From IMG/VR virus record IMGVR_UViG_3300044529_000032, positions 1 through 42,982 of that record: 42,982 bases of DNA; one strand, given 5' to 3'. The position numbers and the translations under genes are program-made. Shown piece after piece: positions 26,774 through 36,549 of the stretch. Source of the DNA: a virus. The notes below the pieces were generated by a model. It did no database searches and was not told the origin of the DNA. It was given only the letters and a program-made list of their open reading frames with translations. Within the stretch, counting starts at the first letter, position 1. Each line of letters starts with the position of its first letter.

Positions 26774-26887
26774 TCAGTCTCGGGGCCAGAGGCGGCGCGT
26801 CCACGGCACCAGCACCGCAGCCAGCAGGTAGCACCACGTCAACGCGATCACGAGGCGGAGGCGGGGCGATGTCGGCGGGGCGGTCAT
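26774..26887 (-). CDS. 37-residue single-pass membrane protein
   Basis: A 37-codon frame starts at ATG 26887, overlapping the resolvase stop by ATGA. After 10 polar residues there is one membrane segment (LVIALTWCYLLAAVLVPW) and a basic tail (TRRLWPRD). The overlap and the positive-inside tail support a real small protein. The function is unknown. Confidence 0.65.
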   Translation of the reverse strand: MTAPPTSPRLRLVIALTWCYLLAAVLVPWTRRLWPRD

Positions 26888-27561
26888 GGCAGCACCTCCA
26901 CGGTGAGCTCGAGCCGGGGCGCGTCGATGTCCACGCCCGCCCGGATCCAGCGCACATCGTCGATCTGTGAGTCGTCCGCGATCACCGAGGCTTGGGTGAG
27001 TGCATCGTGAGCAGCTTTGGCGTAGTTCGCGATATCCCGCCGCGTCCGACGGTCAGGCTCGAACAGGAGCGCCGTGACCCGCACGCGTCCGGTGATGACC
27101 GGGCCCGAGTACTGCAGGGCGAGTTGCTCGGCCGCCTGCTTCTTTGCCGTGCGGTACGGCTTCGTCATCACGAGGATGGCACGCGTCCCACGCATCGCCG
27201 GCGCGAATCGCTGGTTGTCCGCGATCAGCATCGACCACGGCACGCGAAGGCGAGCGCCGGATCGAGCGTCACGAATCGGGGTGGCGGCCTGAAACGGGAA
27301 TCCAGGCGGCAACTCAACACCCGGAAACTGGCGACGCGCCTCGGCCACGGTCACGGTCAGCGTGCGCCGCGGCACACCGGGCGATCCCACGCCACGGCCG
27401 CTGACCGGTCCGAGTACATCGACCTGCACCCCATCCCCGTCGTCCGTCACCGAGCGACCCGCCGCGCGGTTCCGGGTGCGCCGATCGACCTCGGCCAGCT
27501 TCTCCTCGGTCGTCAGGGTGTTCCAGTCGAACGGCGTCGGTGTTCCGCTGGCGGGCGTCAT
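26884..27561 (-). CDS. RusA-family Holliday-junction resolvase candidate
   Basis: 225 residues from ATG 27561, which shares ATGA with the preceding dipeptide-repeat frame. The C-terminal 120 residues follow the RusA pattern: RVRVTALLFEPDRRTRRDIA, NYAKAAHDALTQASVIADDS then QIDDVRW, with the Asp residues expected at the catalytic site. The N-terminal half is a linker plus a strand region (RTLTVTVAEARRQFPGVELP). A TTG-start extension through the hexanucleotide repeat would add a Val/Glu/Gly-rich segment, but that start is weaker. RusA cuts four-way junctions, resolving recombination or replication branches. Confidence 0.82.
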   Translation of the reverse strand: MTPASGTPTPFDWNTLTTEEKLAEVDRRTRNRAAGRSVTDDGDGVQVDVLGPVSGRGVGSPGVPRRTLTVTVAEARRQFPGVELPPGFPFQAATPIRDARSGARLRVPWSMLIADNQRFAPAMRGTRAILVMTKPYRTAKKQAAEQLALQYSGPVITGRVRVTALLFEPDRRTRRDIANYAKAAHDALTQASVIADDSQIDDVRWIRAGVDIDAPRLELTVEVLP

Positions 27562-27821
27562 ACCGACCCCGACCACGATCCCGACCCCGACCACGACCTC
27601 GACCTCGACCTCGACCCCGACCCCGACCCCGACCCCGACCACGACCCCGACCCCGACCTCGACCCCGACCCCGACCCCGAACCCGACCTCGACCCCGACC
27701 ACGACCACGACCACGACCACGATCCCGACCCCGACCCCGACCACGACCCCGACCCCGACCACGACCTCGACCCCGACCTCGACCTCGACCACGACCGGCG
27801 GCGATACCAAGACTGTTTCAT
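27558..27821 (-). CDS. Candidate Ser-Xaa dipeptide-repeat protein
   Basis: An 87-codon frame starts at ATG 27821, three bases after the previous gene's TAA, and ends in ATGA at the resolvase start. After MKQSWYRRR it is almost entirely alternating Ser with Arg, Gly or Trp (SRSGSRSWSGSGSW type). The tight junctions argue for translation. Against it, the repeat is open in every frame, so the frame is partly automatic, and there is no strong ribosome site. It may only serve as a spacer. If made, it would be a disordered, basic-aromatic peptide. Confidence 0.4.
   Translation of the reverse strand: MKQSWYRRRSWSRSRSGSRSWSGSGSWSGSGSGSWSWSWSWSGSRSGSGSGSGSRSGSGSWSGSGSGSGSRSRSRSWSGSGSWSGSV
27564..27797. 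repeat. Hexanucleotide microsatellite (GAC-CNC)
   Basis: About 39 tandem hexamers, mainly GACCCC, GACCTC and GACCAC on the plus strand (a few GATCCC and GAACCC variants). The message strand therefore carries GGGGTC, GAGGTC and GTGGTC. Around 27610-27640 four consecutive GGGG runs are separated by only two bases (TC), a classic quadruplex-forming pattern in the transcript. Such long simple repeats are rare in phage genomes. All six frames are open across it. Confidence 0.95.
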
Positions 27822-27822
27822 G

Positions 27823-28080
27823 TTACTTCAGCACGCCGAAGGATTCGATGAACGCCGTCTGCACGTACCAGTCAGCGGGCAGCTTCTGCGCGTCCTGCCA
27901 CGCCTTGTCACTGAGCGCGCCGGTCTCGTACACGACGGCGGCATCCTCGAGCAACACGCACGACTCGTTCACGCCGATCAGCTTGCCGGTGTAGATGTAG
28001 TTCGCGCAGAACAGGGTGATGCGTTCGCCGATGAGCTCGAGGAGTCCTTCGTTCTCGACTTTCGTGACGAGCTTCTTCAT
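27823..28080 (-). CDS. Small beta protein, LSm/SH3-like candidate
   Basis: 85 residues from ATG 28080, overlapping the preceding stop by ATGA. Strands dominate: VENEGLLELIGERITLFCAN, YIYTGKLIGVNESCVLLEDA then AAVVYETGALSDK. The pattern GKLIGVNESCVLLEDA resembles a small barrel that sets the position of a bound ligand or RNA, but this is only a fold-level impression. It is followed by the dipeptide-repeat region. Confidence 0.75.
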   Translation of the reverse strand: MKKLVTKVENEGLLELIGERITLFCANYIYTGKLIGVNESCVLLEDAAVVYETGALSDKAWQDAQKLPADWYVQTAFIESFGVLK

Positions 28081-28328
28081 TTCGATTCTCCGGTATGGGT
28101 AGTGTTCAGTGGTGAAGCGGAGGGCGCAGGACGCGACGGGGAGGCCGCCACGGCGTCACACAAGGCGTCGGTGGCTTTCACCACACGCTCCAGTCGCTTA
28201 TCGAGATCGAACGCCTTCACGCCGTAGCACTCAACACTGGCACGATGAAGCTCCTCCAGCGCCTTTTGCACTTCTGGCGACTCCCGCCAGGGGGTCGGCG
28301 TGCTCCCTGAAACGTCGGCCTCACGCAT
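28077..28328 (-). CDS. Small helical protein carrying a junction-module N terminus
   Basis: 83 residues from ATG 28328, overlapping the upstream stop by 8 bp. It starts MREADVSGSTPTPW, sharing ADVSG with the mini-ORF repeats upstream. The body is helical (SPEVQKALEELHRASVECYG, DLDKRLERVVKATDALCD) with a Pro/Ser-rich end. Function is unknown. The shared N terminus looks like half of the repeated module fused to a gene. Confidence 0.72.
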   Translation of the reverse strand: MREADVSGSTPTPWRESPEVQKALEELHRASVECYGVKAFDLDKRLERVVKATDALCDAVAASPSRPAPSASPLNTTHTGESK

Positions 28329-28752
28329 GAACAGGTTCCTCTTTCGGCAGTTTGGCGAGCGCGAAATCTTCGGTCGGGTCGGCCAGCAAAACGAGTTGAG
28401 CAGGGTCGTGCGGTGTGGGGCGCGGCTTCGAGTCGCCGTCATCCGTGTTGCGATCAGCGAAGAACGCGCACGTCTGCGGCGGCTCCCATCCATCACGTGG
28501 GCCGTACTCGGTCGTCGTCTGCTTCCAGCCAAAGAGCGTCGCCAGTTCCGGCGACACGCAATGCAGGAACGCGCACGCCTCAAACGCACACGCTGCGCCC
28601 ATCGCGTCTTTGTCGAAGTGCTTGCATCGCTCACAGTTTGGCTCGCTCCACATCTCCCACTCAGAGCCGTTGCTGAACGTGTGCACGTCCTCGCCTTGCG
28701 CCGCGACTAATCCGCGCTCGCTCGCTTCGCCTAATGTGGGTGGCCTGCTCAT
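28321..28752 (-). CDS. Cysteine-rich protein, possible zinc protein
   Basis: 143 residues from ATG 28752, which overlaps the stop of a 15-codon mini-ORF (ATGA) and has GGAGG 8 nt upstream. Residues about 36-70 contain C-E-R-C-K-H-F-D and later C-A-F-E-A-C-A-F-L-H-C, likely one zinc site. A second cysteine lies near WEPPQTCAFF. The C terminus is acidic and proline-rich. The family is not recognised. It is in the early accessory cluster next to methyltransferase genes. Confidence 0.72.
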   Translation of the reverse strand: MSRPPTLGEASERGLVAAQGEDVHTFSNGSEWEMWSEPNCERCKHFDKDAMGAACAFEACAFLHCVSPELATLFGWKQTTTEYGPRDGWEPPQTCAFFADRNTDDGDSKPRPTPHDPAQLVLLADPTEDFALAKLPKEEPVHA

Positions 28753-28796
28753 GGTTTCCCCTCCGGCGGTGTCGGTCCTGAAACGTCGGCGGTCAT
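28749..28796 (-). CDS. Junction mini-ORF, copy A
   Basis: A 15-codon frame, MTADVSGPTPPEGKP, begins at ATG 28796 in ATGA overlap with the upstream gene stop and ends in ATGA at the start of the next gene. Its DNA (28761-28796) is identical over 36 bp to copies B and C. It also supplies the GGAGG ribosome site of the following gene. It may be a translated coupler rather than a functional peptide. Confidence 0.6.
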   Translation of the reverse strand: MTADVSGPTPPEGKP

Positions 28797-29077
28797 GGCT
28801 TCTCCTTGAACAGGCGGCCGGGAAGTTCGATCTTCGGGCTTTCGTTGATGATGATGCTGAGGCGCTTGGCGTCGGCCCTTGCGTGTTCAGTACAGCGCGG
28901 CGACACTCGGCCATTCCGCACCAAAGCGTATTCGGCAAACTCGCCGCACTTGCTCAACCACTGTTCGCCCGTCTCTAGCTGCACGTTCTTGGTCACGTTC
29001 GGCACCGAGCAGACGCGACACTTCCAGAAACTCACGCGCTGGATGCACCGCTGTAGTGTGCGCGGATCAGTTGGCAT
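28793..29077 (-). CDS. Cysteine-containing small protein
   Basis: 94 residues from ATG 29077, whose start lies inside the end of mini-ORF copy B. Residues about 11-60 carry C-x7-C-x2-C (RVSFWKCRVCSVPNVTKNVQ) and later single Cys residues (SKCGEF, PRCTEH), a likely zinc site. The C-terminal half is helical and basic (ADAKRLSIIINESPKIELP). The function is unknown. It is one of three genes preceded by the repeated module. Confidence 0.72.
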   Translation of the reverse strand: MPTDPRTLQRCIQRVSFWKCRVCSVPNVTKNVQLETGEQWLSKCGEFAEYALVRNGRVSPRCTEHARADAKRLSIIINESPKIELPGRLFKEKP

Positions 29078-29120
29078 TTCCGCTCTCCGGCGGTGTCGGT
29101 CCTGAAACGTCGGCGGTCAT
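29067..29120 (-). CDS. Junction mini-ORF, copy B
   Basis: A 17-codon frame, MTADVSGPTPPESGNAN, starts at ATG 29120 in ATGA overlap with the small membrane gene's stop. It ends 11 bp inside the next gene. The 36-bp core (29085-29120) is identical to copies A and C, while the last codons diverge. Confidence 0.6.
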   Translation of the reverse strand: MTADVSGPTPPESGNAN

Positions 29121-29257
29121 TTCGGTTGCCACCATGAGAGGAGTGTTTTACGCCCGTAGAGTCCGACAAACTCCAAGAGGATGAACGGTATTGCGAGCGC
29201 ACATCGGAGCAGATAGAACCACCCCACCGCCAACTCTTTCACCGTGAGGTCAGCCAT
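29117..29257 (-). CDS. 46-residue membrane protein
   Basis: A 46-codon frame from ATG 29257, overlapping the upstream gene's stop by 8 bp. The peptide begins MADLTVKELAVGWFYLL and has one or two hydrophobic stretches (LAIPFILLEFVGLYG) flanked by Arg and Lys, ending LLSWWQPK. ATGA at its stop couples it to mini-ORF copy B. It is probably an inner-membrane protein of unknown role. Confidence 0.7.
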   Translation of the reverse strand: MADLTVKELAVGWFYLLRCALAIPFILLEFVGLYGRKTLLSWWQPK

Positions 29258-29525
29258 TGTTCTTCTCCTGCGCTTGGACGGCGGCGGCAGGTAAAATCAC
29301 CTTCGAGAAGTAGTCGGGCACCGTGTTGCGTTCAGCGAGAATGGCGTCGTGGGCCAATGCGTGTCTGGCGTTGCGAAAACGATAGTGCTTCATCGTGTTC
29401 TTGCTCCACAACGTCAGCGTGGTACCGCGCAAGGCCACGTCCGCATGAGCGACGAACGAATGTCGGCACCGACGCTCGCTCTGCTCAATAACTTCCATCG
29501 GGATAAGCCAAGTCCGCGTGCTCAT
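29250..29525 (-). CDS. Small hypothetical protein, early accessory cluster
   Basis: 91 residues from ATG 29525, overlapping mini-ORF C by ATGA. It has strands and histidines (RCRHSFVAHADVALRGTTLT, HYRFRNARHALAHDAI) and a C terminus with NTVPDYFSKV. No family was recognised. Its start is supported by the GGAGG in the module. It sits between the DPPY methyltransferase and the small membrane protein. Confidence 0.72.
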   Translation of the reverse strand: MSTRTWLIPMEVIEQSERRCRHSFVAHADVALRGTTLTLWSKNTMKHYRFRNARHALAHDAILAERNTVPDYFSKVILPAAAVQAQEKNNG

Positions 29526-29569
29526 GTGTTCCCCTCCGGCGGTGTCGGTCCTGAAACGTCGGCGGTCAT
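29522..29569 (-). CDS. Junction mini-ORF, copy C
   Basis: A 15-codon frame, MTADVSGPTPPEGNT, starts at ATG 29569 in ATGA overlap with the methyltransferase stop and ends in ATGA at the next gene. The 36-bp core (29534-29569) is identical to copies A and B. Confidence 0.6.
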   Translation of the reverse strand: MTADVSGPTPPEGNT

Positions 29570-30210
29570 AGAGCCAGTACCTCCTGAGAAAGTCGTTCAG
29601 CAGCGATCTCGCAGTAGCGTTCAACCTTCTCAACGCCGATGTACTTTCGGCCAAGTCGGCGCGAGGCTTCCGCGATTGGGCCGGAACCTGCGAACGGGTC
29701 AGCGATCAGCCATTCAGCGGGACACTTCTGCAGGAGCGCCATCATCAAATCGACGGGTTTTTCATGCGGGTGTTGCCGTCCGTTCGCCGCCATCGACTGA
29801 ACGGGCGCATAGCAAAGCACGTCCGAATCTCGCCGCCCCGCAAAGCCGTGGCCCAGAACGTAAATCTCTTGGTGCGACGGTTTCCACGGCACCGACAAAT
29901 CGCCCATACCGAGAGCGCCCTTTGTGTCCCAGATCAGCAGCGTGTGCGTTCTGACGGGCTTCGCCACCTTCCATGAGCCGAACACCAGCGCGGGCGCATC
30001 ACCGAACGCTGAGAGGAAACTGTCGCGCTCTACCGTGTCCTGATCGCCCAAGATCGAGCGCGGAAGAACGCCAGCCGCACCGCTCTGATAGTCGATGCCG
30101 TAAGGCGGGTCGGTGACCGCGCAATCTGCCTCACGCAGTTCCTCGAGCGCATCACGCCAGTCGCCGCAGTACAGCACGATTCCTCGCCCGTCATCGTAGT
30201 ACGGCTTCAC
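29566..30210 (-). CDS. DNA amino-methyltransferase (N6-adenine or N4-cytosine)
   Basis: 214 residues from GTG 30210, sharing GTGA with the RHH gene stop. Motif IV is DPPYG (residues 34-38) and the AdoMet site is DPFAGSG (171-177), with HEKP at 149-152. Motif IV precedes motif I, the beta arrangement. The enzyme adds a methyl group from S-adenosylmethionine to an exocyclic amino group in DNA. The target sequence is unknown. No cognate restriction enzyme is visible, so it is probably protective or regulatory. The length is on the short side but the motifs are complete. Confidence 0.9.
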   Translation of the reverse strand: MKPYYDDGRGIVLYCGDWRDALEELREADCAVTDPPYGIDYQSGAAGVLPRSILGDQDTVERDSFLSAFGDAPALVFGSWKVAKPVRTHTLLIWDTKGALGMGDLSVPWKPSHQEIYVLGHGFAGRRDSDVLCYAPVQSMAANGRQHPHEKPVDLMMALLQKCPAEWLIADPFAGSGPIAEASRRLGRKYIGVEKVERYCEIAAERLSQEVLAL

Positions 30211-30377
30211 GGCTTCTCCGGCGGTGTCGGTGAGGGTGGCGCAAATAGCAAACGGCGCACTACGTCTGTCAGAGATTCGCCAGCGACCTTCTGCTTGTTG
30301 AGCGCAGCCCGTTCGCCCTTCGTGAGCCGGAACGTGATGGTCGTGCTCTTGCGGTCGGAGGGGCGCTTCGGGGCCAT
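30207..30377 (-). CDS. Ribbon-helix-helix-type small DNA-binding protein
   Basis: A 56-codon frame from ATG 30377. Residues 10-45 read KSTTITFRLTKGERAALNKQ then VAGESLTDVVRRLL, a typical ribbon-helix-helix with a basic strand. It ends SPTPPEKP, matching the C-terminal half of the mini-ORF repeats. It may regulate its neighbours. The stop overlaps the methyltransferase GTG. Confidence 0.78.
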   Translation of the reverse strand: MAPKRPSDRKSTTITFRLTKGERAALNKQKVAGESLTDVVRRLLFAPPSPTPPEKP

Positions 30378-30960: not shown

Positions 30961-30987
30961 CACACCAACTCCGTTAGGGTATGGGAG

Positions 30988-31002
30988 AAGTGTAATACAC
31001 TT
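30988..31002 (-). promoter_or_regulatory. Operator-like palindrome overlapping the -10 box
   Basis: The 15-mer AAGTGTAATACACTT is perfect except for its central base (AAGTGTA on each side). It covers the -10 hexamer TACACT. A dimeric repressor bound here would block the promoter. The binding protein is unknown; the small HTH protein at 37441-37662 and the RHH proteins are candidates. Confidence 0.75.
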
Positions 31003-31017
31003 GTCTTACGTTGTCAA
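30989..31017 (-). promoter_or_regulatory. Sigma70-like promoter of the 30960 operon
   Basis: A perfect -35 box TTGACA (31017-31012) lies 17 bases from TACACT (30994-30989). It drives the leftward chain from 30960. A 5' leader of about 20-25 nt contains the GGAG site. Confidence 0.8.
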
Positions 31018-31319
31018 GTGGGGCTATTGGGTGAGGGTGGCAGAGCGGCCCCCGACTCCAAAATGACACCGACTGGGTAGATGAACCCGACGCCAAACTT
31101 CACGATCTCATCGAGCGCGGCTTCGGCATCTTCCTTCGTTCGGCAGAGGCCGACAAAGTTCTGGTGGCGGTCGTAAGCCACGTAGCCAACGATTTCCGGT
31201 GCTGTCGTGGTGGGCAGAGCGGCGCCCGATGCAAGCCGTTCAGGAAATCCCATCTCCTCGGACTTCGTGTGGAAGCGACCGCACTGGCAGACCCATCCTT
31301 CGACTTCAGGGGAACTCAT
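31014..31319 (-). CDS. Protein with zinc motif and repeated SGAALP peptide
   Basis: 101 residues from ATG 31319. The N terminus carries C-Q-C-G-R-F-H. The peptide ASGAALPTTT occurs near residue 30 and ESGAALPPSP near the C terminus. Between them a small alpha/beta core reads VGYVAYDRHQNFVGLCR and KFGVGFIYPVGVI. The SGAALP tags also occur in neighbouring genes as gene-junction sequence. Its stop overlaps the -35 box of the next operon. The function is unknown. Confidence 0.7.
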   Translation of the reverse strand: MSSPEVEGWVCQCGRFHTKSEEMGFPERLASGAALPTTTAPEIVGYVAYDRHQNFVGLCRTKEDAEAALDEIVKFGVGFIYPVGVILESGAALPPSPNSPT

Positions 31320-31515
31320 AGCCGACGATCTCCTTGCACGCCCAACAAATCAGCGCGCAGTAGTGGCGATATTTGAATGGAGGCCACGAGAAGAGCGTGA
31401 CCGGCGAACGTTGCACTTGACCACGCAAAAATGGCTCGAACGGCGCAACGCCACACTTGGGGCACGATGCGAGCGCACACGGCGCACCATCGAGTATCGC
31501 CGTCTCAATCGGCAT
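31306..31515 (-). CDS. Small zinc-ribbon protein
   Basis: 69 residues from ATG 31515. The Cys pairs C-x2-C at residues 17-20 (ALASCPKCGVAP) and C-x4-C-x2-C at the end (HYCALICWACKEIVGYE) make a likely zinc ribbon. It overlaps the Lar-like gene by 11 bp and the following gene by 14 bp. It is in the repeat-rich accessory region. The partner is unknown. Confidence 0.72.
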   Translation of the reverse strand: MPIETAILDGAPCALASCPKCGVAPFEPFLRGQVQRSPVTLFSWPPFKYRHYCALICWACKEIVGYEFP

Positions 31516-31924
31516 CGTGCGTTGCGTCTGTCGTGGTGGGCAGAGCGGCGCACTGCGCGACGGCCCGACGGTTCCACGCTTCGATTGCTTCGCGCTCAGT
31601 CGGCTTCGCAAGGCTCTGATGTGCGCCGCAGGAGCCGCACTCAGTCAGCCACCCTGCTAGACGCTTTGACGTGAACGGCCTCGTCGTGGTGCATCCAAAC
31701 GGGCACGGCTCCGGTGTCCACGCTCCCGCTGATGCCCCCGCCACAGACTCCCGCGGCTGTGGGGGCAGAGCGGCGCACTGCGCGACGGCCCGACGATTCT
31801 GCAAGAAATCGCGGCAATCCCAGAGCAGCTCGCGCACCTTCGCGTGTTCCATGTGCTCAGGATTCCATGCGCCACCAACCGCGAGATATTGCGTGATGCG
31901 TGCCGCGAGTTGTTCGGCAGTCAT
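31505..31924 (-). CDS. Fusion protein with Lar-like restriction-alleviation zinc domain
   Basis: 139 residues from ATG 31924, overlapping the preceding stop by ATGA. Residues 1-46 are a helical early-protein domain (MTAEQLAARITQYLAVGG...HMEHAKVRELLWDCRDFL). Residues 72-120 have Cys 74, 78, 96 and 99 with the pattern CPFGC, ECGSCGA, then EAIEAWNRR, as in the Lar family that relieves restriction. The repeat NRRAVAQCAALP appears after each domain, and a junction peptide SVAGASAGAWTP lies between. It looks like two genes joined through repeats. Restriction alleviation is a family-based inference. Confidence 0.78.
   Translation of the reverse strand: MTAEQLAARITQYLAVGGAWNPEHMEHAKVRELLWDCRDFLQNRRAVAQCAALPPQPRESVAGASAGAWTPEPCPFGCTTTRPFTSKRLAGWLTECGSCGAHQSLAKPTEREAIEAWNRRAVAQCAALPTTTDATHDAD
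31538..31570 (-). repeat. 33-bp direct repeat, copy 1 (RRAVAQCAALP)
   Basis: The 33 bases at 31538-31570 are identical to 31763-31795. On the minus strand both encode RRAVAQCAALP, once at the end of each domain of the Lar-like fusion. Confidence 0.9.
31710..31747 (-). repeat. 38-bp direct repeat, copy 1 (SVAGASAGAWTP)
   Basis: Identical over 38 bases to 32658-32695. Encodes SVAGASAGAWTP in the Lar-like fusion, between its two domains. A 17-bp part also occurs at 33492-33508. Confidence 0.9.
31763..31795 (-). repeat. 33-bp direct repeat, copy 2 (RRAVAQCAALP)
   Basis: Partner of 31538-31570; 225 bp apart. Follows the N-terminal helical domain. Confidence 0.9.
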
Positions 31925-32238: not shown

Positions 32239-32468
32239 TTTCCGCTCCGTTTGAGTCGTGAGCCTACGCGATACCTCCCGCCAACGATGTCAAGAAATCC
32301 GTACTTCACCATCTGGCTAACGTGGTGCTTCACCTTCTGCGGCGACGTGCTGCGCGGCAATCCCGCCACCCGAGCCACCTCACGCAACGACAGATCGTCT
32401 ATTCCCTTCCCCGCCGCCACGTCTAGAATCGCTTGCTGAATCGGGTGCGCCGCGATCAGATACTTCAT
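32235..32468 (-). CDS. Winged-helix regulator
   Basis: 77 residues from ATG 32468, overlapping the upstream stop by ATGA. A recognisable winged helix: LREVARVAGLPRSTSPQKVK, then HHVSQMVKYGFLDIVGGRYR. The last basic strand (VGSRLKRSGK) could be the wing. Likely a transcription regulator of the accessory operon; target unknown. Confidence 0.8.
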   Translation of the reverse strand: MKYLIAAHPIQQAILDVAAGKGIDDLSLREVARVAGLPRSTSPQKVKHHVSQMVKYGFLDIVGGRYRVGSRLKRSGK

Positions 32469-32707
32469 GTGCCCATGAGGGGATCAGGTACCATGCCATG
32501 TCGTGACCACTCCACGACCTCGACAATCCGTGCCTCGGCATACTCACGCGCCCAATCACAATCCACGACCAAAGGATCATCACCGCGCCGAGTATCCGCC
32601 AAATACATCCGGCGTTCGACCATCTGTGTATACGTGGCGCTAGCCAGCATCGGCATGTCCGGTGTCCACGCTCCCGCTGATGCCCCCGCCACAGAGTTGT
32701 CAGTCAT
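32465..32707 (-). CDS. Small hypothetical protein with repeated tag
   Basis: 80 residues from ATG 32707. Residues 4-16 are NSVAGASAGAWTP, shared with the Lar-like fusion. The body contains MVERRMYLADTRRGDDPLVV and REYAEARIVEVVEWSRHGMV. It overlaps the cytosine methyltransferase by 8 bp and the winged-helix gene by ATGA. Family unknown. Confidence 0.72.
   Translation of the reverse strand: MTDNSVAGASAGAWTPDMPMLASATYTQMVERRMYLADTRRGDDPLVVDCDWAREYAEARIVEVVEWSRHGMVPDPLMGT
32658..32695 (-). repeat. 38-bp direct repeat, copy 2 (SVAGASAGAWTP)
   Basis: Partner of 31710-31747; encodes the N terminus of the 80-residue gene immediately after its start. Confidence 0.9.
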
Positions 32708-33485
32708 TTGATACCTCTCTCGGGTAGTAGGCGTGGGCGATGTGTTGAGCCAGGGCTGGCGGAATCTTCGCGATCTTTGCGCTCGCCATTTTGCGCTGCT
32801 TGGATTTGGAGCCGTACTTTCTACTGACGGTGCTTTCGCCGAGCCGAGCGCTGATCTCTGAGGGCAGTTTGCGGCCTTCTGCAACGGCTCCAGCGAGGCG
32901 TGTGAAATCCAGCCCAGGCACATGGCGCGGATCGCTCGGCGGGTACCACGATACGCCGCTGCCGAGTTTCGCCGAACGATGCGGAATCGGCATGATGGCA
33001 GGCACGTCACCCCACAAGTGAAAGCTCCCGAAGTTCCACGCCGATCGACCGACCCACGGAATCGCGCCGCGGACGTTCTCCTGAATCATCGGAATGAATC
33101 GGCCGGCGGCTTCGCACGCTTCCCGCTGGATACGCTTCGGTGCCCCAAAAAGACTGTTCAACGCCTCAATCGTGCGATACCCCTCGTACTTCTCGGGGAA
33201 CTCGTCCTGACCTCGGAGCGCCCGCGCGATCTGCTTGGCCCGTGTCCACGGCATCGCCATGTAGCTGTACGCCTGGCAGGGTGAGGACGCGACGATGCAC
33301 CGCGCGTCTTTCAACTGCCGACCGTGAAGCGTCAACACGTCCTGCAACACCAGCTGTGCCGGATAGCGATGCTCCCCGTAGACGTGCTGCTCAATGTCGA
33401 AGCCGATCACGTCCCAGCCTTCGGCGAGGAAGCCCTCTGTCCAGCCTCCTAGACCCGCGAAGAGGTCGATGCAGAGCGGTTTCAC
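32700..33485 (-). CDS. C5-cytosine DNA methyltransferase
   Basis: 261 residues from GTG 33485, sharing GTGA with the preceding 30-residue gene. Motif I is DLFAGLGGW (residues 7-15), motif IV has PCQ at 69-71 with the catalytic cysteine, and motif VI is ENV at 136-138. It transfers methyl groups from AdoMet to C5 of cytosine. It is shorter than bacterial enzymes such as M.HhaI, with a reduced target-recognition part, but key motifs are intact. Together with the DPPY enzyme it may shield phage DNA from restriction. No paired nuclease is visible. Confidence 0.92.
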   Translation of the reverse strand: MKPLCIDLFAGLGGWTEGFLAEGWDVIGFDIEQHVYGEHRYPAQLVLQDVLTLHGRQLKDARCIVASSPCQAYSYMAMPWTRAKQIARALRGQDEFPEKYEGYRTIEALNSLFGAPKRIQREACEAAGRFIPMIQENVRGAIPWVGRSAWNFGSFHLWGDVPAIMPIPHRSAKLGSGVSWYPPSDPRHVPGLDFTRLAGAVAEGRKLPSEISARLGESTVSRKYGSKSKQRKMASAKIAKIPPALAQHIAHAYYPREVSND

Positions 33486-33574
33486 GTCGTGGCTCCCGCT
33501 GATGCCCCGCGAGTCACTTCCAGCACGGTCATTTTCGGGGCTGTCTCTGGGGCAGACGCGCCGTGATTAGACAT
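33482..33574 (-). CDS. 30-residue junction peptide gene
   Basis: A 30-codon frame starts at ATG 33574, overlapping the upstream stop by 8 bp, and ends in GTGA at the methyltransferase start. It begins [15 protein letters not shown] and ends VTRGASAGATT, with two GASA motifs. The second is encoded by 17 bases (33492-33508) shared with the 38-bp repeats. It behaves like the mini-ORF couplers elsewhere. Translation is plausible; function is unknown. Confidence 0.55.
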   Translation of the reverse strand: MSNHGASAPETAPKMTVLEVTRGASAGATT

Positions 33575-34361
33575 TCGCTTTCCGTCCAACTTCGCACATC
33601 GCAAGAATTAGCTCGCAGAATGACGCCTGAAGCACGGTCACGGTCGGGGCGAGCGATGTGTGCGCGGCAGCCCTCGCGGCAGCACCCGCGGCAGCCCTCG
33701 CGGCAGCACTCGCGGCAGCCCTCGCGGCATCCCACGCGGCAGCACTCGCGGCATCCCTCGCGGCAGCCCTCGCGGCATCCCACGCGGCAGCACTCGCGGC
33801 AGCCCTCGCGGCAGCCCTCGCGGCATCCCACGCGGCATCCCACGCGGCATCCCACGCGGCAGCACTCGCGGCAGCACTCGCGGCATCCCTCGCGGCATCC
33901 CTCGCGGCAGCCCTCGCGGCAGCACTCGCGGATCGTGCCGCGTCGAGAGTCGGCTGCGCGGCTTTCGCGGTCACGGCGTCTACAATCCGCGCGACCGCCT
34001 CCAAGTGCTCGGCCTCTTTCGTCAGACCAGCGAGCCGAAGAAACGCCGGCGTGTGCACGCGCACGAGCCAATCCGTGGCCATCCACGCGCGGACTTCCTC
34101 ATCTTCCGGCGTGGTCGCCGTACCGATAATCTGCGGCACCAACGGCTTCAGCAGTTCGGTGCGCGGAGGATCTCCGAGCGAATCGTTCCACGACCGGAGC
34201 GCGGCGGAAATGACGAGCGACACACACACCGGATGATCCGAATGTTTCTCGCCTGCGACCCATGCCACGGCCTCCATCACACACAACTGCTTCCCGCGTC
34301 GATCGTGCCCACCACTCGCAAAGCGGAGATCGGCAATCTTGGATACGTCAATCGTTTTCAT
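33567..34361 (-). CDS. Hypothetical protein with Ala-rich tandem-repeat helix
   Basis: 264 residues from ATG 34361 with GGAG 6-7 nt upstream. The first 125 residues are a globular domain ([38 protein letters not shown]). Residues about 140-235 are an Ala repeat of 4-residue units such as AWDA, ARDA and ASAA, probably a long amphipathic helix with Asp, Arg and Trp at regular positions. I recall hypothetical phage proteins with this same globular domain and AWDA tail. Function is unknown. The DNA repeat may vary in copy number. Confidence 0.82.
33660..33935. repeat. 12-bp tandem repeat within the Ala-rich gene
   Basis: About 22 copies of a 12-bp unit (CTCGCGGCAGCC with CTCGCGGCATCC and CTCGCGGCAGCA variants). 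Because 12 is a multiple of 3, gain or loss of units would keep the frame. Confidence 0.95.
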
Positions 34362-35832: not shown

Positions 35833-36549
35833 TTACGCCTCCGCGAGTGCAGGATGGGCCTTCTCGAAATCGTTCAGGTCGCGCCGGCGCTCGAGTTCCT
35901 CTTCCATCGCGCGCGCGTATGCCGCGGCCGACTTGCCTGCCTGTCCTGACGCCCGCGTGTACGCTTCCGTGATCGCCTCGGTGGGCACACCGCGCAGCGG
36001 CTGGCCCTTGTACTGCTCCAACCCTTTGAGGGGCGGGAAGGGGATTTTAGAGGGCTCCGTGACCTGCTGCGCGTTGATCTCGCGGGACGCCGCGCGGGAT
36101 TCGCGCTTCTGCTGCTGGCTGGCGCGGTTCCCGTCGTCGTCCTCGTCCGTCGTCAGCGCGAGCAGGGCCGACAGCCCGTACCGGCGCAGGTAGGTGATGA
36201 CGCTCCCCGCCGTCTGCGCCGTCGCCTTCCGCTCCTTGCCGTCCTTGCTGTTCTGCTCCGCGATCGGCGCATAGACGATGTTCTCCACCCACTGCCCGGA
36301 GACGTGAATCAGGCGGGTTTTCATCGCCAGCAACGTGACACCGGCCGCATCGTGTGGATCGTCGCCGCCCTGAATCAGAAAGAGCTCGTGCTTCGCCAGC
36401 AACGGGCGCGCGTAGTCCGTGATCGCCGCCAATGTCGCATACGTCGAGTTCAGCATCGGGTTTTTCGCGTCCTTCACCACCGGCTGAATCTCCCGCTGGA
36501 CGTTCAAGAGCGCGGCGACCACGAGCTCGTGTTTCGCGGAAAAGCGCAT
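35833..36549 (-). CDS. ERF-family single-strand-annealing recombinase
   Basis: 238 residues from ATG 36549. The ERF hallmark lies at residues 113-141: TAGSVITYLRRYGLSALLAL then TTDEDDDGN. The N-terminal domain (NVQREIQPVVKDAKNPMLNS, YATLAAITDYARPLLAKHEL) is also typical. ERF proteins anneal complementary strands in phage recombination and circularisation. It works with the DEDD exonuclease upstream and possibly with RusA. No SSB gene was recognised nearby. Confidence 0.92.
   Translation of the reverse strand: MRFSAKHELVVAALLNVQREIQPVVKDAKNPMLNSTYATLAAITDYARPLLAKHELFLIQGGDDPHDAAGVTLLAMKTRLIHVSGQWVENIVYAPIAEQNSKDGKERKATAQTAGSVITYLRRYGLSALLALTTDEDDDGNRASQQQKRESRAASREINAQQVTEPSKIPFPPLKGLEQYKGQPLRGVPTEAITEAYTRASGQAGKSAAAYARAMEEELERRRDLNDFEKAHPALAEA

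Follow-up and report, generated by a model that had tools for sequence, protein, structure and literature searches.

A 36-nucleotide sequence, ATGACCGCCGACGTTTCAGGACCGACACCGCCGGAG, is present in three exact copies on the minus strand of the window, the 42,982-nucleotide stretch of viral DNA, from an environmental sample, analysed here (29569-29534, 29120-29085, and 28796-28761). It is probably a translated boundary sequence, i.e., an in-frame seam copied to several joints of the accessory operon, an interpretation guided by analogy with a junction module of two other genomes. On the minus strand, the window reads as the genome of a phage; its two ends share a 149-nt repeat with a single mismatch, and its genes include a terminase, a portal, and a major head protein.

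Copies of the 36-mer and their reading frames

The three copies, their partial counterparts, and the adjoining genes are as follows; gene calls were made with a home-made caller combined with reading by eye.

29566..30210, minus strand: N6/N4 DNA methylase (PF01555, 1.9e-15), GTG start at 30210, GTGA overlap with the RHH stop
29534..29569, minus strand: 36-mer copy A1, exact; mini-ORF 29522-29569 (MTADVSGPTPPEGNT, then stop), joint between the N6-MTase and the 91-aa gene
29117..29525, minus strand: 91-aa and 46-aa genes, A1-A2 segment (gene calls)
29085..29120, minus strand: 36-mer copy A2, exact; mini-ORF 29067-29120 (MTADVSGPTPPESGNAN, then stop), joint between the 46-aa and 94-aa genes
28793..29077, minus strand: 94-aa gene, A2-A3 segment (gene call)
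28761..28796, minus strand: 36-mer copy A3, exact; mini-ORF 28749-28796 (MTADVSGPTPPEGKP, then stop), joint between the 94-aa and 143-aa genes
28321..28752, minus strand: 143-aa gene, 3' of A3 (gene call)
28306..28319, minus strand: 5' half of the 36-mer, 14/14 nt; GCCGACGTTTCAGG, coding ADVSG, N terminus of the 83-aa gene 28077-28328
30215..30231, minus strand: 3' half of the 36-mer, 16-17 nt; ACCGACACCGCCGGAGA, coding PTPPE, C terminus of the RHH-like gene 30207-30377

With up to three mismatches allowed, the 36-mer has three matches in the window, and none was obtained in 100 dinucleotide shuffles, which bears out the three identical copies reported in the preliminary description. Every copy opens precisely with an ATG, in a 4-nt overlap (ATGA) with the upstream stop; at the other end, the overlap between the mini-ORF stop and the start of the next gene measures 4 nt at A1, 11 nt at A2, and 4 nt at A3. 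The overlapping stop and start codons of a coupling element are thus found at either end of the mini-ORFs (-4/-4, -4/-11, and -4/-4), which measure 15, 17, and 15 residues from A1 to A3 along the operon. The final bases of the 36-mer are GGAG, located at ribosome-site spacing from the start of the next gene; Shine-Dalgarno (SD) pairing to the downstream genes amounts to -9.7, -6.6, and -9.7 kcal/mol for A1, A2, and A3, respectively. At the ATG of the mini-ORF itself, the SD is strong for A1 (-9.8 kcal/mol) and A3 (-8.5 kcal/mol) and weak for A2 (-4.2 kcal/mol). This junction architecture, including a GGAG site within the last codons of the mini-ORF, had been proposed earlier and was confirmed. 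In the earlier description of the variable ends, the last shared E had been counted twice.

The two partial copies extend this picture into regular genes. Both halves, one in the 83-aa gene and one in the RHH-like gene, are read in the frame of the mini-ORF, as the preliminary description had stated, and the half in the RHH-like gene holds the GGAG site of the methylase. The 36-mer is a short sequence that recurs exactly at gene junctions, as expected of a boundary sequence. A1 and A3 are 94% alike across 54 nt, reaching the first codons of the next gene, and because of this extended similarity they are not fully independent. When windows of 60 nt upstream and 50 nt downstream of the junctions were compared, they were alike only in the repeat, A1 and A3 additionally sharing the first codons of the next gene; whole-gene duplication was therefore rejected as the source of the copies. 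A promoter or terminator role was rejected as well: the sole promoter-like site (31017-30989) lies elsewhere, and no terminator-like sites were found. With respect to RNA structure, the 36-mer matched no Rfam family, and fold z-scores of -0.27, 0.18, and 2.16 gave no excess stability.

In the operon from 33574 down to 27823, almost all junctions overlap, by 1-14 bases, the exception being a gap at 30961-31013 at the promoter-like site near 31000; gene junctions in the structural region mostly have positive gaps. If the mini-ORFs are discounted, three joints of about 40 nt become the sole such gaps in the remaining chain. Within the window, the overlap chain is the strongest, though indirect, argument for the open frame being of importance. 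A tblastn search with the 143-aa and 139-aa proteins against phage records gave no matches. Two arrays of 6/12-bp tandem repeats, possible length-variable tracts, are located at 27515-27844, at the start of reading frame 26884-27792, and at 33615-33998, inside 33567-34361.

Sister repeat families in the same operon

Further upstream, the operon contains two families unrelated to the 36-mer, B (38-mer) and C (33-mer), which sit at the ends of genes or domains and had escaped the preliminary description.

33492..33508, minus strand: family B 17-nt core, C terminus of the 30-aa mini-ORF 33482-33574, just 5' of the C5-MTase
32658..32695, minus strand: family B 38-mer (SVAGASAGAWTP), in the 80-aa gene 32465-32707, close to its N terminus
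31763..31795, minus strand: family C 33-mer (RRAVAQCAALP), in ORF 31505-31924, behind its first domain
31710..31747, minus strand: family B 38-mer, second copy, preceding the Lar-like domain
31538..31570, minus strand: family C 33-mer, second copy, C-terminal tail behind the Lar domain
31202..31225, minus strand: family C partial copy (GAALPTTT), joining two segments of ORF 31014-31319 with the family frame kept

The mini-ORF 33482-33574 overlaps the C5 methylase through GTGA, and the end of the second family C copy overlaps another 24-nt repeat (31528-31551 = 31202-31225). Dispersed repeats of at least 18 nt are confined to 28.7-32.7 kb, barring the end repeat, the low-complexity arrays, and one 18-mer. 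All six checkable second or partial copies of families A, B, and C are in the family frame, for which the probability by chance is about (1/3)^6; this count takes the start of the mini-ORF holding the B core as 33574. Since the checked copies keep their frame, the repeats behave as coding modules and not as free-floating DNA repeats.

The 139-aa ORF 31505-31924 appears to be two small proteins joined together, with an N-terminal segment, NRRAVAQCAALP, SVAGASAGAWTPE, and the Lar-like domain; at the junction, repeat C precedes repeat B, and another C copy stands at the end. Similarly, ORF 31014-31319 appears to consist of two small segments, the first of them containing Cys, linked by the partial C copy, and terminates in a C-like tail (GAALPPSPNSPT).

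The nearest relative and a translated junction repeat in other genomes

Searches of IMG/VR with a 27-mer, a 19-mer, and a degenerate peptide-coding pattern, of GTDB genomes with a 23-mer, and of phage records by blastn of the A3 junction returned neither the 36-mer nor long parts of it, records very near the window possibly lying outside the coverage of all these searches. A 20-mer of family C had no match in IMG/VR. The term "portable" used in the preliminary description thus holds within this one genome alone, since none of the other records searched contains the 36-mer.

G001, the contig nearest to the window, is syntenic with it for the most part (terminase 58%, head protein 72%) but lacks the 36-mer and has no dispersed repeats longer than 16 nt. 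Its accessory region differs from that of the window, and its methylase is 33% identical overall. At the 3' end of the methylase gene, however, similarity is 91% over the 23-nt SD-ATGAC junction (TCAGGAGGTACTGGC..TATGAC) and 25% beyond it. Homology between G001 and the window ends at the overlapping ATGAC, the place at which copy A1 begins in the window.

A translated junction repeat is present in IMGVR_UViG_3300020201_000023 (G002; L004), whose methylase is 62% identical to that of the window. The repeat, GCACGCGCGAAGGTGGCGACGTGAC, codes for ARAKVAT (KVAT, then stop) and lies 5' of the methylase and at two further junctions, as a 25-mer in two copies and a third copy of 16-18 nt; it is translated, with a GTGA stop/start overlap and with AAGGTGG at ribosome-site spacing. 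Scanning for this repeat identified G023, which shows 94-98% DNA identity to G002 over most long blocks of the region. Homology between the two genomes stops precisely where the first 25-mer copy ends, and the methylase is missing from G023 at this place; the homology then picks up at CGTGACC in the next copy and is interrupted once more at the third copy. Block ends lie at most 12 nt from a called gene boundary in 10 cases out of 46, against 6.4% at random, which indicates that boundary breakpoints are general in this pair, with the repeats explaining some of them. These data show, for the modules of G002 and G023 and not for the 36-mer itself, that a translated overlap module can act as a marker of cassette exchange. 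The G002 repeat resembles the 36-mer in being an in-frame C-terminal tail with an SD-like motif and a stop/start overlap, with copies at gene-exchange breakpoints; it differs in its unrelated sequence and in having no free mini-ORF. Together with the end of the G001 homology at ATGAC, the breakpoints lend support by analogy to the earlier suggestion that the 36-mer may supply homologous ends for cassette exchange. Among 26 records surveyed, repeats at overlapping junctions were seen in the window, G002, G023, and, weakly, G017.

Two further observations concern this pair of genomes. At L004 9998-13091, two DNA methylases agree in two blocks, one of 30 nt close to the start and one of 52 nt at the 3' end, and their differing middles suggest an exchange of the specificity part. 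In both G002 (17053/17354; L053) and G023 (50587/50888), a repeat of 55-57 nt contains a palindromic core (GCGCATCCCACCGGGTGCGCC).

Proposed mechanism, precedents, and competing explanations

If the 36-mer is a translated boundary sequence, its 5' half would place a start codon on the stop of the upstream gene (ATGA), while its 3' half would provide C-terminal codons containing the GGAG of the next gene. Abutting halves would yield a free mini-ORF, and a half joined to a gene body would become an N- or C-terminal protein tail. The seam would be an open frame because selection would keep the overlapping chain. The identical 36 nt would be long enough for annealing recombinases, and either homologous recombination or strand annealing could add, remove, or exchange small-gene cassettes with the overlap chain undisturbed. 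By coordinate arithmetic, recombination between copies would remove 449, 324, or 773 bases and leave the chain perfectly overlapping. According to published minima, Red beta needs 23-27 bp for pairing and RecA needs 31-34 bp; Rad52-like recombinases of phages, Erf among them, work on short or diverged homology, the Erf of phage D3 being an efficient recombinase (PMC3945230). A candidate exchange agent is encoded in the window:

35833..36549, minus strand: predicted ERF-family single-strand annealing recombinase (PF04404, 1.6e-25)

The case for the 36-mer as a recombination seam is made by analogy with G002 and G023; against it stand the unrelated sequence of the G002 module and the fact that the copying of a repeat is no proof of mediated exchange. 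The collections searched contained no relative with an empty or alternative 36-mer site. The precision with which phages exchange small accessory genes at gene ends has long called for an explanation, and most mosaic joints are not known to show homology. A coding seam that carries a start overlap and the next ribosome site and that recurs along an overlapping operon would, if true, account for this precision as well as for the maintenance of expression, and it would predict the places at which new accessory-gene cassettes are inserted.

In lambdoid phages, boundary sequences are short conserved sequences at module junctions, proposed to provide homology for module exchange. Conserved boundary sequences have been proposed to account for phage mosaicism (named in PMC3029335); they are common to different phages, whereas the 36-mer is repeated inside one genome and forms part of overlapping frames. 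The preliminary description knew of no translated form, a view that proves too strong. Specifically, the adjacent genes 67 and 68 of Island3 have 18 C-terminal residues in common, a boundary repeat of about 50 bp that was read as short-boundary recombination and that, in the Island3/Brujita case (cluster I mycobacteriophages), goes with the presence or absence of gene 68 (PMC3029335). Like the 36-mer, this is a translated repeat at gene ends for which homologous recombination at the boundary has been proposed; its two copies are fused to C termini, whereas here three free mini-ORFs occur beside fused halves, and the 36-mer additionally holds the start overlap and the SD of the next gene. The 36-mer combines an Island3-type coding tail with a start overlap and a ribosome site of the type discussed below for cluster K, in free form. 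Junction seams are already known, and the 36-mer opens no new category; its form, translated and free-standing, is what is unusual.

A putative function of the 36-mer as a translational adaptor is plausible and compatible with the boundary-sequence explanation. In its strict form, in which termination at the upstream stop leads to reinitiation at the mini-ORF ATG and then to the next start, with translation of the mini-ORF needed downstream, we regard it as possible but doubtful: the overlaps at the mini-ORF starts and ends and the strong SDs of A1, A3, and the downstream genes argue for it, but the A2 ATG has a weak SD, and the downstream genes each own an SD and could start alone. Coupling through the mini-ORF may be dispensable for this last reason. 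A self-spreading translational shim goes further and seems quite unlikely; here the mini-ORF would be a free mini-gene, any gene could be inserted between two of its copies, and ribosome hand-over along the fully overlapped operon would be kept, the proline-rich TPPE end causing ribosomes to pause over the ribosome site that follows. The mini-ORFs could also be emptied genes, the N- and C-terminal tails of a small gene whose body was deleted, as the occurrence of the separate halves as tails of other genes and the mostly N- or C-terminal position of families B and C would allow; a gene body enclosed by both halves is not present, and even for emptied genes copying would be required to arrive at three identical ones, which makes this origin unlikely. 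An assembly artefact or chance repeat is extremely improbable. The virus record was assessed without reads, but no copies are expected by chance, the flanks are unique and consistent, the contig has an end repeat, and other contigs show similar repeats.

The remaining alternative to a translated boundary sequence is an untranslated ribosome-site repeat with an incidental open frame, comparable to the start-associated sequences (SAS) of cluster K mycobacteriophages, a 13-bp sequence (GGGATAGGAGCCC) that occurs cluster-wide in 11-19 copies per genome at ribosome-site position, with no known function and no ORF described (PMC3203893). The likeness is one of layout: both are short directional repeats at gene starts, and in the window the SD lies a few bases 5' of the starts, in one orientation and in the non-structural region, with GGAG at the 3' edge of the 36-mer, as in SAS (PMC3203893). 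Intergenic 26-nt SD+ATG repeats in G017, a terminase relative, point the same way. The 36-mer nevertheless begins exactly at the ATG, its 36 nt far exceed an SD, and its halves stay in frame in real genes. The SAS consensus, with two deviations allowed, has no match in the window, and SAS membership was rejected on this ground. An untranslated repeat thus appears improbable for the 36-mer. The G017 repeats (CATTACCCACACAGGAGAATCACATG and its neighbours; L040, 12692-13910) precede small genes and are of the SAS-like, untranslated kind.
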